A stretch of DNA of 38,328 nucleotides from Jiangella anatolica (lineage in GTDB: Bacteria > Actinomycetota > Actinomycetes > Jiangellales > Jiangellaceae), in contig NZ_POTW01000064.1 in the NCBI RefSeq assembly GCF_003236295.1, positions 1 to 38,328 on the forward strand, given 5' to 3'. The first letter of the stretch is position 1, and each line of letters starts with the position of its first letter. Position numbers and translations under genes: made by a program. The notes below the pieces were generated by a model. The model was given only the letters and a program-made list of their open reading frames with translations. It had not been told where the DNA came from and searched no databases. Positions 2,728 to 33,731 of the stretch are shown here, in pieces.

Positions 2728-3536
2728 CGCTGCGCTCCGCGCTCTGGTTTCCGTTGTTCGACGAGCTCGCCGACCCGGCCGTGGTGGTGCGGCTGGCCGC
2801 CGAGGCCGAGGAGGCCGGCTGGGACGGCCTGTTCGTCTGGGACCACGTGCGCTGGCGCGAGCCGGTGCGCGCGGCCGCGGACCCGTGGATCGTCCTCGCC
2901 GCCGCGGCCGCGGTGACCGAGCGGCTGCGGCTCGGCCCGATGGTGACGGCGATACCCCGCCGCCGGCCGACGAAGCTGGCCCGCGAGACGGCGACGCTGG
3001 ACCGGCTCTCCGGCGGCCGGCTGGTCCTCGGCGCGGGTCTGGGCAGCGACCGGTTCGGCGAGGAGTTCTCCCGCACCGGCGAGGAGCTGGACGACCGCGT
3101 CCGGGCCGCGATGCTGGACGAGTCGCTGGCCATCCTCCGCGCGGCGTGGTCGGGCGAGACGGTCCGGCATCGCGGCGAGCACTACGTCGTCGACGACATC
3201 AGGTTCGAGCCGGTGCCCCACGGCGTCCCGGTGTGGATTGCCGGCTTCCCCGGGAAGACCGCGCCGATGCGCCGCGCCGCCCGGCACGACGGGTACGTCC
3301 CGGTCAACCTCGACCATCCGGACCAGCTCGCGGCGGCGATGGACACGATCCGGGGGCACCGCGCCGACGCCGGGGCGAGCGGGCCGTACGACGTCGCCGT
3401 CTCCCTGCTGTCCGACGCCGACTTCGCCGCGTACACCGCCGCCGGCATGACGTGGTGGCTGACCGACTTCGACCCGCACACGATCACCCTCGACGAGGTC
3501 CGCGGCGTGCTCCGCGACGGGCCGGCCGCGCGCTGA
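2724..3536 (+). CDS. LLM-class flavin-dependent oxidoreductase
   Basis: A 270-residue bacterial-luciferase-like TIM barrel. Recognisable segments are LWFPLFDELADPAVVVRLAA, AEEAGWDGLFVWDHV (the family's GFDSVWVxDH-like strand), LRLGPMVTAIPRRRP, TATLDRLSGGRLVLGAGLGS and ARHDGYVPVNLDHPD. Such enzymes use FMNH2 or F420; the sequence alone does not decide which. Length fits a short LLM protein. It is the last gene of the cassette diiron protein - CDGSH protein - LLM oxidoreductase, starting in an ATGA overlap, and ends six bases before the convergent AsnC-type regulator. Confidence 0.88.
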   Translation: MTLRSALWFPLFDELADPAVVVRLAAEAEEAGWDGLFVWDHVRWREPVRAAADPWIVLAAAAAVTERLRLGPMVTAIPRRRPTKLARETATLDRLSGGRLVLGAGLGSDRFGEEFSRTGEELDDRVRAAMLDESLAILRAAWSGETVRHRGEHYVVDDIRFEPVPHGVPVWIAGFPGKTAPMRRAARHDGYVPVNLDHPDQLAAAMDTIRGHRADAGASGPYDVAVSLLSDADFAAYTAAGMTWWLTDFDPHTITLDEVRGVLRDGPAAR

Positions 3537-28929: not shown

Positions 28930-29664
28930 TCAGTACTCGTACGGCTCGGCCGGCTGGTCGATCGGGGTCACCCGCTCGGCGACGAACAGCGGGGGCTCCG
29001 TGTCCGCCGTCCCCGGCTCGTGTCCGTCCCGGGGCTCCCAGCGGCCCTCGATCTCGAGCCAGGTGTCCACCGGCCGGGCGCCGTCGCCGACCACCTCGAC
29101 GGAGAGCGCGGTGGCGTCCGCGGCGCAGCAGTTGACGGCGAACCTGGTGAGCAGGTAGCCGCCGGCCGCGTCGTCGTCCAGCGGCGCGACGAAGCCGACC
29201 AGCCGGACCCGGGTGTCCGCCAGCGACGTCGCCTCGTCGTAGAGAGCGCGGCCGACGTACTCGCGCATGGAGAGGTCGACGGCGCCGTCGCGCGGTTCGG
29301 GGAGGCCGGCGAAGTCGATGCCCGACATCAGCGCCGGCGGCTCGCTGCCCTGACGCCCGGCCGCGAACGACCCGAGCGGGGACGGCGCGACCAGCAGCAG
29401 CGTCAGCAGCGGAAGGGCGAGGAGCCAGGCCACGCCGGGCGCGTGGTCGTGGCCGGCGGCTTCCGGATCACCGGCCGCCGGCCGGAGATCCCGGCGCAGC
29501 GCGTGCGCGCCGAGAACGGCCAGGACGATCCCCGCCGCGAGCAGCGCCGGCCGCAGCCCGGGCCGGACGAAGGGCAGGGCGGCGTCGGTGAGGCCGAGCC
29601 GGATCAGGATCGCGGCGAACGCGAGCAGCAGGATCGCCTGCGCCCGCTCGTTCAGACCCCTCAC
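28930..29664 (-). CDS. TIGR03943-like putative permease partner protein
   Basis: A 244-residue membrane-anchored protein. GTG 29664 overlaps the permease stop (GTGA). Three helices lie in the first 110 residues (AQAILLLAFAAILIRLGLTD, LLAAGIVLAVLGAHALR and VAWLLALPLLTLLLVAP). The C-terminal soluble domain has VRLVGFVAPLDDDAAGGYLL, then the conserved Cys-Cys in TRFAVNCCAADATALSVEVV and WLEIEGRWEPRDG. TIGR03943 proteins are found next to DUF318/ArsP-type permeases as here, and the two are thought to form one transport system. The Cys-Cys pair suggests metal or thiol chemistry; the substrate is unknown. Confidence 0.85.
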   Translation of the reverse strand: MRGLNERAQAILLLAFAAILIRLGLTDAALPFVRPGLRPALLAAGIVLAVLGAHALRRDLRPAAGDPEAAGHDHAPGVAWLLALPLLTLLLVAPSPLGSFAAGRQGSEPPALMSGIDFAGLPEPRDGAVDLSMREYVGRALYDEATSLADTRVRLVGFVAPLDDDAAGGYLLTRFAVNCCAADATALSVEVVGDGARPVDTWLEIEGRWEPRDGHEPGTADTEPPLFVAERVTPIDQPAEPYEY

Positions 29665-30677
29665 AGCAGCCACCACCCGACGATCAGGGCGCTGACCACT
29701 GCGGTGACGAAGGTCAGCGGCGCGAACCGGACCGCGAAGGCGCGGCCGAAGACACCGGTGTGCAACGCGATCAGCTTGATGTCGACGACCGGCCCGACGA
29801 CGAGGAACACCAGCCGCGCCGTGAGCGAGAACTGGGTCAGGCTGGCCGCGACGAACGCGTCGGCCTCGGAGCAGATGGCCAGCAGCACCGCCAGGGCCGC
29901 CAGCACGAGGATCGCCAGCCACTCCGTCCCGGCGATCGCCGTCATGACCGACCGCGGGACCACGACCTGCAGTGCCGCGGCGGCGACGGAGCCGACGACG
30001 AGCCAGCCGCCGGCGTGCAGGAAGTCGTGCCGGGCCGTTCCGGCGAACACCTCCCACCGTGTCGACCCGTGGGTGACGTGACTGCGGCGCCGCAGCAGCC
30101 ACTCCGATCGGCCGAACCGCGCCCACACGAAGCCGACGATCACGGCCGTCGCGAACGACGCCAGCAGCCGGGCCACGACCATGTCCGGCCGGCCTGGGAA
30201 CGCCACCGCCGTCGCCACCAGCACGACCGGGTTGATGGCCGGCGCGGCCAGCATGAACGCGAACGCCGCCGCGGGCGCCGCGCCGAGCGCCGTCAGCCGC
30301 CCGGCCACCGGCACCGACCCGCACTCGCAGCCCGGGAAGACGGCCCCGGCCACGCTCGCCGCCGGCACGGCCACCAGCGGCCGGTCCGGAAGCAGCCGCG
30401 CGATCAGCGCCGACGGCACGAAGGCGGCGATCGCGCCGCTCACGACCACGCCGAGCACCAGGAACGGCATCGCCTGGACCGTGATCGACACGAAGATCGT
30501 GGCCCAGGTCTGCAGCGCCGCGTGGTCGAGAAACGGCTCCGCCCACGGCCGGGCGACGACCGCCGCGATGAGCGCGACCATGAACAGCTCCGGCGCGTGC
30601 CGCCCCGCGGCGGGCAGCGGTGCCGCCGGAAGGCGCCGGCGCCACCGCTGCCGCTGTGCTGGTTCCGTTCCCGCCAT
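29661..30677 (-). CDS. DUF318/ArsP-type permease
   Basis: A 338-residue integral membrane protein with about eight to nine helices. Conserved features of the UPF0718/ArsP_1 family are VFPGCECGSVPVAGRL (the PxCxCG motif), AFAFMLAAPAINPVVLVATA and the late CSEADAFVAASL and GPVVDIKLIAL segments. Characterised relatives export organoarsenicals, but most members are uncharacterised. ATG 30677 has no convincing SD: nine bases upstream the CTAG flank of a MITE-like element begins. Without the element, the peptidase stop would sit eight bases from this ATG. The next gene, TIGR03943-like, overlaps by four bases. Confidence 0.87.
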   Translation of the reverse strand: MAGTEPAQRQRWRRRLPAAPLPAAGRHAPELFMVALIAAVVARPWAEPFLDHAALQTWATIFVSITVQAMPFLVLGVVVSGAIAAFVPSALIARLLPDRPLVAVPAASVAGAVFPGCECGSVPVAGRLTALGAAPAAAFAFMLAAPAINPVVLVATAVAFPGRPDMVVARLLASFATAVIVGFVWARFGRSEWLLRRRSHVTHGSTRWEVFAGTARHDFLHAGGWLVVGSVAAAALQVVVPRSVMTAIAGTEWLAILVLAALAVLLAICSEADAFVAASLTQFSLTARLVFLVVGPVVDIKLIALHTGVFGRAFAVRFAPLTFVTAVVSALIVGWWLL

Positions 30678-30689
30678 CCGGACGGCTAG

Positions 30690-30848
30690 GGGGTGTCCCG
30701 TGGATCTTCGGCGGCGCGGATCGACGCCCAGACGCCGACCAGCTGCGTTGTCGTCGTCGCCCGATGGCACCGCATCGAACTCCTCCTCCGCCTTGCTGGA
30801 TCGACGCCTGGACGCCGCCCGCATCCACCAATATCCACGGGACACCCC
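30690..30848. mobile_element. 159-bp MITE-like element with CTAG target duplication
   Basis: GGGGTGTCCCGTGGAT at 30690-30705 is the perfect reverse complement of 30833-30848, with weaker pairing continuing inward. Both ends are flanked by CTAG (30686-30689 and 30849-30852), the duplication typical of IS5-group insertions. No transposase is inside. An internal direct repeat GGATCGACGCC occurs at 30718 and 30798. The TAG stop of the M14 peptidase lies in the right CTAG copy, and the permease ATG is nine bases beyond the left copy, so the element split a formerly 8-base junction. The ends and flanks are seen; IS5-type mobilisation is inference. Confidence 0.85.
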
Positions 30849-33731
30849 CTAGTCCCTGATCGTGATGGTGGCCCGCTGGTAGTTGTCGCGGGTCCCGTCC
30901 GGCACGTAGTTGTTCTGGATGTTGCCGGCCGCGTCGACGGCGAACCACTTGATCGTCGTCGTCTCGCTGATCGTGATCGGCTCCTGACCCTGGCGCGGGC
31001 CGGTGAACTCGATCCGCGGCGACTCGAACGTCGGCCGGCTCCCGTCGAGCGTGTAGTAGACGTCGGACGGCTCGCTGAGCTCGAACGTGATGTCCACGGG
31101 GTCGTCGAACGGGCCCCGTCCGGGCTCGAGGGTCGAGCGGGGCATGACGTTGTCCAGGCCGTACATCTGCGCGACCTCGAGGATGCCGAGCCAGCCGTTG
31201 GAGAACTCCTGCGCCTCCTCGTGGCCCTCCTCGTACGGCGGCGTGAAGCCGACGTCGGACCAGCCGCTCCCGTTCCAGGTCGGCGAGCCCGCCTCGAAGC
31301 TCCAGGCGAAGATGCCGTTGTTGTAGAAGTGGTCGTCGGCGGAGTTGCCGGCCGCCGAGTAGAGGACGTCGCTGATCGGCCCCACCCGGCTCGGCCACAC
31401 ACTGGTGCCGCGGTGCTCCTTGATCCGGTTCAGGATGACGTCCGACGCCGCGTAGAAGTAGCTCTCGACGCCGAAGCTGGGCCGCTCCAGCCCGTCGCGC
31501 GTGGGCAGCCGGTACGCGCCCGGCGCCCACATGAAGTAGCCGCCGTGGGTGTGCGTGTTCATCGCGAACCGGATGTTCGGGTTGTTCTCCACCAGCCAGA
31601 TCTCGTTCTTCGCCTCCGGCTCGGACAGCGGCGTCGGCCCGCTGTACGTGTCGCTGGTGCACGACCCCGAGGCGCCGCTGAAGCCCTGCTCCCGGTTGCC
31701 GACCCGGAAGTTCCGGTTCAGGTCGACGCCCCAGCCGTTCCTGGCCCGCAGGTCCGACGCACCGGTGATCGCGCAGTGGTTCGTCATGTTGCGGCGCTGC
31801 AAGGTGAAGTCGTGGATCGAGTAGTGCGAGCCGTCCGGGTTCACCGTCGGGACGATGAAGATGTCGAGGTTCCTGACCAGCTGACGGATGAACGGGTTGG
31901 ACCGGTAGTTGCGCAGCAGCCGCTCGGCGGTCTCGATGGCGACCAGCGGCGTCACCCACTCACGGGCGTGCTCCTGCGAGTACAGCAGGACGCCGGTCTG
32001 CGAGCCGTCGCGGTCGGTGCCGATCCGGATGGCCTTGACGGTGAACGGGTCGCGCGACACCGACTCCGGCGCCGACAGGTTGTCCGTCAGCCTGCGTGTC
32101 TGTGCCGGCGCGACGACGCCACCGCCCGGGCTGCCGCGCCAGGTGTAGGCCCGCACCAGCGCGCTCGCCGCGGGGTCGGCGTTCAGCGCAGCGACGACCT
32201 GGGCCGCCGTGCTCGTGACCGCCCCGGTCGCGTTGGTGGCGAGCTGGACCCGGACCGCGTCGCCGGTGACGCCGACGCTCAGCGGCGAGTTCGCCGCGCC
32301 GGGATCGGCCAGCTCGACGGTGATGTCGTTGCCGCCCTCGTGGCCCCAGGCCAGGGAGTCGACGCCGACGCGGTTCTCGTTCGGCGCTCCGTGCACGCGG
32401 CCGGCGGCGGGCAGGCCGGGCTTGACGACCGCGCCAGCCTCCATCGAGATCATCACCGACGGGATGGTGTTCGCCGGCGCCGTGCCGGTCATCGTGACCG
32501 GGTCGCCGGGCACGTTGTTGACGACGACGACGGCGATCGCGCCGGCGGCCTGGGCGTTGAGGACCTTGACGGTGTAGCCGCAGGTGCCGCGGTCGACCAC
32601 GGCGATGCTGCCGGCCGGGAAGCCGACCAGGGCCTCGCAGCCGTCGGCCGGATCGCCGGTCCCGTCGGCGACGCGGGCCAGGGTGCCGGGGATCCCCGCC
32701 GCGGCCGGCGCCTGGCCGAAGCCGGCGGCGACCGCCTCGTACTCGCCGGCGCCGGTGGACGGCGCGTCGACGACGATCTTCTCGGCGAACAGGGCCTGCG
32801 CTGGGCGCCGGTAGCCGTTCGTCTGGTTCGGCAGCTCGACGATCTCGGCCAGCTCGGGGAACTCCGCGGCCAGCGCCTCGATCCGCGCGGTGGCCTCGGT
32901 CGCGTCGACGTAGTGGTCCACGAAGCCCGTCGCCAGGTTGCCCCACTCCTGGGGCGCGCCGCGCCCGCGCGGGTACTCGCCGTCGAGCCACTCGGTGACC
33001 GGCCGCTCGGCCTCGCCGACGACCTGGCCGTTGAGGATGCTGCGCACCCGCATCCGCGACGGCACCGGATCGGCCGGCACCGGGTCGCCGGTGCGGTGGT
33101 ACATGTAGTGGCCCCCGTCGACGAACCGGGAGAGGTTGAACGTGCCGCCGGCGCCGATCGGCGTGCCCGGCCCGGCGTCGAGGCTCACCTCCACCAGCAC
33201 GTTCGCCGAGCTGGACCCGGCCTCGGAGAAGACCTCGATCTGGATGAACGTCTGGCCGAGGTTGTCGAACCAGGCGGCGCGCTGCACGTTCAGGTCGTCG
33301 CCGACGTCGAGCGCCGCCTCCTCAGCGGTCTCGATCTCGGCGACGGTGTCCTCGCGCTCCTCCTGCAGCGCGGCGAACTGCTCCTCCGACAGCACTGCCT
33401 CGCCGACGGCGAACCCCGCGTCGGTCAGCCACTGCTGCTCCGATGGCGTGACGATGGCCTCGACCCGCAGGCCGTCGGCGGTGTGGTCCACCTTCTCGGC
33501 CAGGTCGACGCCGGTGGCCACCAGCTGGTCGAGCGCGTCGCGGTCGGGCACCGTGATGGGGACGATCTCAGGCAGCTCGTAGCCGTCGGACGCGACCGAC
33601 TCGGCGGTGAGCTCGGGTACGGGTTCGGTCGCCGTGCCCTGCATCGCGAGCGGCGCGATGAGCAGTGCGGCGGGGACGACCACAGCGGTGGCCATGCCGG
33701 CGCTGCGGCGGGAGAGAGTGGGGCGAGCCAC
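30849..33731 (-). CDS. Secreted M14 zinc carboxypeptidase with nested insert domains
   Basis: A 960-residue exported peptidase; GTG 33731 follows GGAGGTGGATC, with a signal peptide at 1-35. The M14 fold starts at about 258 (GNLATGFVDHYVDATEATAR). It is interrupted at about 325-450 by a PA domain (GSIAVVDRGTCGYTVKVLNA, AIAVVVVNNVPGDP) and at about 453-555 by a phage-tail-like module (DITVELADPGAANSPLSVGV, TSTAAQVVAALNADPAASAL). The fold resumes at 565. Zn ligands are His588 and Glu591 (QEHAREW) and a His in MNTHTHGG (727/729); catalytic Glu813 is in WSFEAGS. A chitobiase C-terminal-like beta domain (VYYTLDGSRPTFESP) ends it. Its TAG stop belongs to the CTAG flank of the MITE. Confidence 0.9.
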   Translation of the reverse strand: MARPTLSRRSAGMATAVVVPAALLIAPLAMQGTATEPVPELTAESVASDGYELPEIVPITVPDRDALDQLVATGVDLAEKVDHTADGLRVEAIVTPSEQQWLTDAGFAVGEAVLSEEQFAALQEEREDTVAEIETAEEAALDVGDDLNVQRAAWFDNLGQTFIQIEVFSEAGSSSANVLVEVSLDAGPGTPIGAGGTFNLSRFVDGGHYMYHRTGDPVPADPVPSRMRVRSILNGQVVGEAERPVTEWLDGEYPRGRGAPQEWGNLATGFVDHYVDATEATARIEALAAEFPELAEIVELPNQTNGYRRPAQALFAEKIVVDAPSTGAGEYEAVAAGFGQAPAAAGIPGTLARVADGTGDPADGCEALVGFPAGSIAVVDRGTCGYTVKVLNAQAAGAIAVVVVNNVPGDPVTMTGTAPANTIPSVMISMEAGAVVKPGLPAAGRVHGAPNENRVGVDSLAWGHEGGNDITVELADPGAANSPLSVGVTGDAVRVQLATNATGAVTSTAAQVVAALNADPAASALVRAYTWRGSPGGGVVAPAQTRRLTDNLSAPESVSRDPFTVKAIRIGTDRDGSQTGVLLYSQEHAREWVTPLVAIETAERLLRNYRSNPFIRQLVRNLDIFIVPTVNPDGSHYSIHDFTLQRRNMTNHCAITGASDLRARNGWGVDLNRNFRVGNREQGFSGASGSCTSDTYSGPTPLSEPEAKNEIWLVENNPNIRFAMNTHTHGGYFMWAPGAYRLPTRDGLERPSFGVESYFYAASDVILNRIKEHRGTSVWPSRVGPISDVLYSAAGNSADDHFYNNGIFAWSFEAGSPTWNGSGWSDVGFTPPYEEGHEEAQEFSNGWLGILEVAQMYGLDNVMPRSTLEPGRGPFDDPVDITFELSEPSDVYYTLDGSRPTFESPRIEFTGPRQGQEPITISETTTIKWFAVDAAGNIQNNYVPDGTRDNYQRATITIRD

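Follow-up and report, generated by a model that had tools for sequence, protein, structure and literature searches.

The stretch of DNA analyzed here, referred to as the window, comprises 38,328 nucleotides of contig NZ_POTW01000064.1 from Jiangella anatolica, and it carries a short mobile element lodged in an operon. The three genes concerned lie on the minus strand. A gene for an M14 zinc carboxypeptidase (30849-33731; PF00246, E 7.2e-35) is located upstream, and it is followed by the gene for a predicted permease (29661-30677, ATG at 30677; PF03773) and by the gene for a putative permease subunit of TIGR03943 (28930-29661, start approximate; E 1.3e-37). The 159-bp element between peptidase and permease (30690-30848) is a miniature inverted-repeat transposable element (MITE) that folds best on the minus strand. 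It is bracketed by two copies of the target CTAG, at 30686-30689 and 30849-30852. Its ends, GGGGTGTCCCGTGGAT, form a perfect inverted repeat over 16 bp (left repeat 30690-30705, plus strand; right repeat 30833-30848, minus strand), or over 20 bp with CTAG included.

The peptidase open reading frame (33731-30849) stops on the TAG contained in the right CTAG (30851-30849 on the minus strand). Removal of the element and one CTAG in silico leaves this TAG, eight bases, and then the permease ATG at 30677, and hence the distance from stop to ATG is 171 bases with the element versus 8 before. The first-pass annotation of this DNA had described the element with its perfect 16-bp ends, the CTAG duplications, the preserved TAG, and the eight-base spacing; the coordinates (30686-30852) and the arithmetic agree with it on each of these points. 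The permease frame remains open across the whole MITE up to a GTG at 30845, 3 bases past the peptidase stop and with AGGGA 7 bases upstream, and a permease with 56 extra residues that starts inside the terminal repeat is a possible product of this arrangement. In addition, the MITE brings a very stable hairpin into the peptidase-permease junction.

Copies, target sites, and parent transposase

The J. anatolica genome (7.0 Mb in 256 contigs) was searched with the element. We identified nine more near full-length copies at 89-95% identity, or ten counting the window copy. One further copy carries an internal deletion, and three others, at 71-76%, belong to a sister family. In the sister genome G011, the peptidase orthologue (86% protein identity; locus L072) ends in GGACTAG, with one CTAG and the permease start directly after it, which represents the empty site. 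In another Jiangella genome (G008), the peptidase orthologue has a TAA stop and the downstream region differs. Because the sister genome retains an empty site with one CTAG and nine other copies are dispersed in the genome, the 159-bp element is a real insertion and not a chance arrangement. The family is short and non-coding, and it combines terminal inverted repeats, a target duplication with an empty site, and dispersed copies. The earlier proposal of a MITE is borne out, as are the CTAG duplication and the preserved stop.

The internally deleted copy (L018; contig C249, approximately 3001-3087) has lost the apical core and keeps both arms. Its deletion joint falls in two 23-nt direct repeats, which are also present in the window copy (30718-30740 and 30798-30820).

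Matches to the element were found in 10 of 12 Jiangella genomes and in 23 of 60 relatives, with J. anatolica included in both counts. A sample of the phylum gave matches in 10 of 296 genomes, which is an undercount under the strict filters used, with 11 candidates scored per genome. A scan of genome records for the exact core pattern returned at least 120 stretches. The 80 that were listed, which serve as a sample of taxa, cover about 18 named genera, and every title among them names Actinomycetota. The search of plasmid, phage, and viral records gave one Streptomyces plasmid record and one viral contig, and no phage record.

The insertion exactly at a stop codon, on which the first-pass annotation had laid emphasis, is true of this site and is not special to it. 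We scored CTAG sites as stops of coding frames with a codon model derived from 29,794 codons of Jiangella loci and applied to all loci. Among 102 loci, 11 failed an end-symmetry filter, and removal of two orthologous duplicates from the remaining 91 left 89 independent insertions. CTAG is retained on both sides in 37 of these, of which 23 are located at gene stops, compared with 44 of 164 control CTAG sites (Fisher p 8e-5). Four of the 23 serve convergent genes on both strands. The control was drawn from loci L001-L191 and the window with element-like stretches masked; repeats were dropped, as were sites that resemble element ends or lie close to the end of a locus, which reduced 385 raw sites to 164. 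A first, less clean control, which could still include some element ends, had 51 of 179 sites at stops (p 2e-4). When insertions with at least one CTAG are considered, 35 of 67 are at stops, with the gene on the structured-strand side only in 16 cases, on the other side only in 15, and on both in four. The position at stops is explained by target choice together with a presumed loss of damaging insertions, independently of orientation, and insertions at stops survive because the upstream gene retains its TAG. Since this tendency is general in the family and has no orientation preference, it is not special to the peptidase-permease operon. A simple rule, that a CTAG target provides a free TAG stop, accounts for insertions on stop codons.

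Transposase loci with the PF13340 domain are present in 5 of 12 Jiangella genomes. We examined 34 transposase loci for inverted ends with equal flanks, many of which gave no resolved ends. Genome G010 contains a 1017-bp insertion sequence (IS) in five CTAG-flanked copies with the ends GGAGTGTCTGACGGATC(T/A)TG. Genome G001 contains a 1007-bp element in three copies, with the ends GGCGTGTCTGGCGGATCTTG, and further 993-bp elements with the ends GGCGTGTCTCYTAAGTC. These elements of the two sister species have CTAG flanks and carry the DUF4096 (PF13340) and DDE_Tnp_1 (PF01609) domains, and their resolved ends closely match both Jiangella MITE families (e.g. GGGGTGTCTGACGGATCT and GGTGTGTCTCCCAAGTC). 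One of the two ends of a MITE copy in G010 (L156) equals the first 19 letters after CTAG of the G010 IS. In J. anatolica itself two PF01609 matches are left, one of them with an end of the MITE type. The IS5-group origin suggested earlier is in line with these findings, and mobilization by an IS5-family transposase is the most likely explanation of the element, judging from the shared ends and target.

An IS630-type element in CTAG adjoins an IS5-type element that is also in CTAG in G001 (L098, 1373-2504; L099, 935-2066). CTAG thus seems to be a target common to several IS families in Jiangella.

A conserved fold on one strand

What the first-pass annotation chiefly missed is the nature of the body of the element, which is conserved as a fold of one particular strand and whose ends are exchangeable. 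The window element has a predicted folding energy of -125 kcal/mol (z -13) for the minus strand and -93 (z -7) for the plus strand, and the structured strand folds better in all 91 copies that passed the end-symmetry filter (of 102). The conserved structured core, which is the stretch behind our model R1, is supported by covariation and strand asymmetry and occupies 30705-30833 on the minus strand.

We aligned the inner parts, with ends excluded, of 28 representatives at less than 88% identity (alignment A2). The folding energy of this alignment is -25.8 kcal/mol for the structured strand, whereas the opposite strand gives -7.0 and column shuffles give -3.0 +/- 1.7. Changes on both sides were found in 20 of 28 pairs, and none of 500 shuffles reached any of five measures; the alignment scored 0.46, versus 0.04-0.15 in slid controls. 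The second alignment (A3) was made from the 80 listed loci of the exact core pattern and has 75 distinct rows. It was fitted to the model, with the loop columns fixed by the selection pattern and the stems free, and it overlaps A2 in what are probably the records of G028 and G037 and includes the Jiangella relative J. muralis. A3 has both-side changes in 22 of 28 pairs, with 396 cells showing such changes versus 124 in shuffles, and a score of 0.50 versus 0.05-0.09 when slid. These alignments show one strand of the core, as predicted from sequence, to form a long hairpin whose stems carry compensatory changes. A search of Rfam with parts of the window and 13 loci gave no family above its gathering score.

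The two strands were also distinguished by the ratio of G-U to A-C cells, which for the 28 representatives was 97:11 in the inner stems as against 16:7 in the ends, and for A3 was 145:18. These ratios lean toward the structured strand, on which the structure was chosen with G-U allowed. We therefore aligned the two arms with each other in a strand-neutral manner, giving G-U and A-C the same score. Among the 28 rows, this alignment gave 155:18 in the outer stems and 196:79 in the whole inner part, with G-U more frequent in 23 rows, less frequent in one, and tied in four. Among the 58 longer rows of A3, the respective ratios were 282:53 and 352:193, with 47 rows having more G-U, seven fewer, and four tied. 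The G-U asymmetry of the outer stems is real, though inherited jointly by related copies.

The core contains a conserved internal loop, both sides of which consist of near-invariant columns with G-A modules. The structured strand reads, in order, GCAAGGCGGAGGAGGAG (the 5' side, 30780-30796), an apical hairpin of free sequence (30760-30779), and CGACGACGACAACGC (the 3' side, 30745-30759). Pairing is retained in the apical hairpin despite its variable sequence, with both-side changes of helix 6 in 9 of 9 and 8 of 8 pairs. Within the loop, G-C pairs recur with a period of three bases, and at three successive positions between such pairs GA faces GA in 21, 23, and 19 of 28 rows; in some single rows, Watson-Crick steps replace GA/GA. 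This pattern suggests that the loop is built of tandem sheared G-A pairs. The two sides of the loop are spaced by 43, 44, or 45 nt in 132 of 140 measured copies, and therefore no reading frame is kept.

We also considered a small protein, which in the window copy would read KAEEEFDAVPSGDDDNAA. This candidate was rejected on account of the variable spacing and because even the best frame is open in at most 59 of 142 copies.

Separate histories of the core and its ends

Altogether, we compared 154 elements. Target copies are present at both ends in 65 of them, including 52 with CTAG and 13 with TNA, and these 65 form 14 end clusters at the threshold used; the TNA elements, from Micromonospora and others, begin with GAG. 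An element of genome G028 (L170) and one of the Jiangella genome G008 (L187) agree in 20 of 20 positions at each end, while their cores agree in only 64 of 105 positions (61%). The same G028 element and another from that genome (L069) agree in 95 of 105 core positions (90%) and in 14 of 20 positions at each end. A tree of 46 hand-picked inner parts, with weak support for its deep branches, implies no fewer than 3 changes of target class and no fewer than 17 changes among the 16 end types. As these comparisons of sequence show, the core and the terminal repeats have separate histories, and the core has been joined to new ends repeatedly. In Jiangella, different ends are shown to mean different transposases, and elsewhere we infer the same.

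Two elements of Actinopolymorpha pittospori (L345 and L354) are of the IS5 type and have GAG ends and TTA/TAA flanks, which is the target class of the TNA MITEs.

Competing explanations and significance

We consider it likely, on the evidence of ends, targets, and covariation, that the window contains an IS5-mobilized MITE in a stop-codon CTAG, and that its core, structured on one strand, has repeatedly acquired different ends. An IS5-family transposase (PF13340 and PF01609) would move the non-autonomous element in trans, and the element would have entered the CTAG of the peptidase stop and duplicated it. The comparisons suggest that the core may be a hitchhiking structured nucleic acid, either RNA or a single-stranded DNA hairpin, that borrows different transposases. 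It would act as a folded RNA, or less likely as a DNA hairpin, and so aid the spread or persistence of the element. A switch of transposase would come about by the gain of new ends, perhaps through template switching or through conversion of one hairpin arm by the other; arm-to-arm copying through the hairpin is one possibility for the joint change of both ends.

Several observations weigh against this interpretation. The number of both-side pairs in A3 (22) exceeds the shuffle mean of 19.1 more narrowly than the other measures do, and one of 500 shuffles reaches 22. The pair statistics are inflated by the kinship of the copies, as the controls have no phylogeny model. When G-U pairs are forbidden, the two strands of A2 fold nearly equally (-11.2 with 12 pairs versus -10.0 with 11 pairs) and the inner dozen pairs are left; the strand preference therefore rests on G-U pairs of the outer stems and presumably also on the loop. 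Target copies at both ends are missing from 89 of 154 elements, including 48 with one CTAG and 41 with neither. Autonomous IS with matching ends and the same target were found in Jiangella only, among searches that also covered G028, the complete genome G340, and 13 named genomes. The metagenome-assembled genome with the most end types (G028) has no PF13340 match. Ten of the 13 named genomes do have this domain, and none of 30 loci examined there belonged to an IS that shares its ends with the local MITEs; this search outside Jiangella required equal 3-base flanks and was made partly in draft assemblies, which are interrupted at repeats. In G340, the single PF13340 locus has ends that differ from the MITE ends. 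Finally, 14 of 16 core copies in G340 are oriented against the replication fork.

This last count would suit a core that works as single-stranded DNA, its hairpin forming on one of the template strands as the DNA is replicated or transposed and being recognized there, with no RNA involved. When five complete genomes are pooled, 43 of 68 copies have their structured strand running against the fork (p 0.04), with the length of G340 taken as 4.5 Mb and termini set opposite dnaA. Co-transcription is not favored by the lack of an orientation preference toward the gene whose stop is hit (16 versus 15), tandem G-A pairs are stable in DNA as well, and an RNA fold and a single-stranded DNA fold give the same covariation signal. 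However, the fork bias is absent from the four Jiangella genomes (29 of 52 copies), and RNA is favored over DNA because the outer stems show an excess of G-U over A-C. We regard the DNA explanation as rather unlikely. Somewhat better placed, and still a tentative proposal that we would not expect to hold in preference to its negation, is that the core represents a new class of mobile structured RNA in Actinomycetota. Such an RNA would be protein-free, would have spread through many genera with a lifestyle like that of the short interspersed nuclear elements (SINEs) of eukaryotes, and would repeatedly take the ends of resident transposases (CTAG, TNA), its hairpin copying a new end to the other arm.

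It is improbable that the element was retained because it rewired translation or transcription of the permease/TIGR03943 pair. The widened stop-to-ATG gap and the possible extended permease from GTG 30845 would agree with such a role, whereas we found no sigma-70-type promoter and no intrinsic terminator pattern in 30550-31000, stop insertions are general in the family and neutral in orientation, and the same position is empty in G011. Conserved structure, which the first-pass annotation had listed as counting against its own reading, is found in the family and not at this position, where a sister genome is empty. Most likely, the MITE has no selected regulatory job at the peptidase-permease operon.

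Less probable again, and already disfavored by the data, is an ordinary MITE, that is, an IS5 deletion derivative in which the long hairpin arises as a side effect of the ends and no structure is selected. Many MITEs are palindromic, and the ends of this one match IS5 elements. However, a blastn comparison of the MITE body with the IS detected nothing in common beyond the ends, and a deletion derivative of an IS5 element was rejected on this basis. Moreover, the covariation and the conserved loop are inside the element and not in its ends, and the core is common to all 14 end clusters. A CTAG target preference had hinted at an IS630 parent, and we give the least credence of all to an IS630-type system with a TA duplication inside CTAG: although a single site with CTAG flanks cannot distinguish a 2-bp TA duplication from a 4-bp CTAG duplication and an IS630-type IS of G001 is likewise located in CTAG, the ends of that IS are unrelated (TCTCCTGAGTC), no end of the PF13358 loci of the genus (one of them resolved, with other ends) matches the MITE, J. 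anatolica has no PF13358 match at E 0.001, the IS5-family elements of sister genomes have ends near those of the MITE, and the IS630 parent was rejected for its non-matching ends.

The IS5-mobilized MITE with a structured core can be compared with several known systems. It shares with other IS5-family MITEs the short non-coding body, ends near those of a resident IS, a target duplication, and many copies; unlike them, it has as its body a strand-specific fold that is conserved among elements with many kinds of ends and two classes of target. ERIC, Correia/NEMIS, and RUP are likewise mobile palindromic repeats of intergenic regions whose transcripts can form hairpins, and they differ from the present element in taxa and ends. 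We know of no end swapping around a conserved loop in any of them. The QMITE1 element of Coxiella burnetii is a MITE with a long palindromic RNA fold, transcribed as the small RNA CbsR13 (PMC5896051). It resembles the present element in folding as a long palindrome, with the fold here being predicted from sequence; its authors' BLASTN found no orthologue elsewhere, and the available part of that report describes no conserved core with exchangeable ends. TnRErm46/ISRe46 of Rhodococcus equi also targets CTAG, so that the genes it hits can retain a TAG stop (PMC6794481); it is unlike the present element in belonging to the IS481 family, in its 6.9-kb length and cargo, and in its unrelated ends. 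No paper on the core was found in a literature search that had most subscription journals outside its reach, which is not proof that none exists.

The family is of more interest than the single insertion. In the usual picture, non-autonomous elements are decayed copies of one IS, whereas here the ends evolve separately from the body, and structural constraint acts on one strand of the body across many genera of a phylum. A covariance model of the core is usable for annotating repeats that are presently unlabelled. In addition, the family allows tests of how MITEs change their transposase and of whether selection can act on a bacterial MITE as an RNA.

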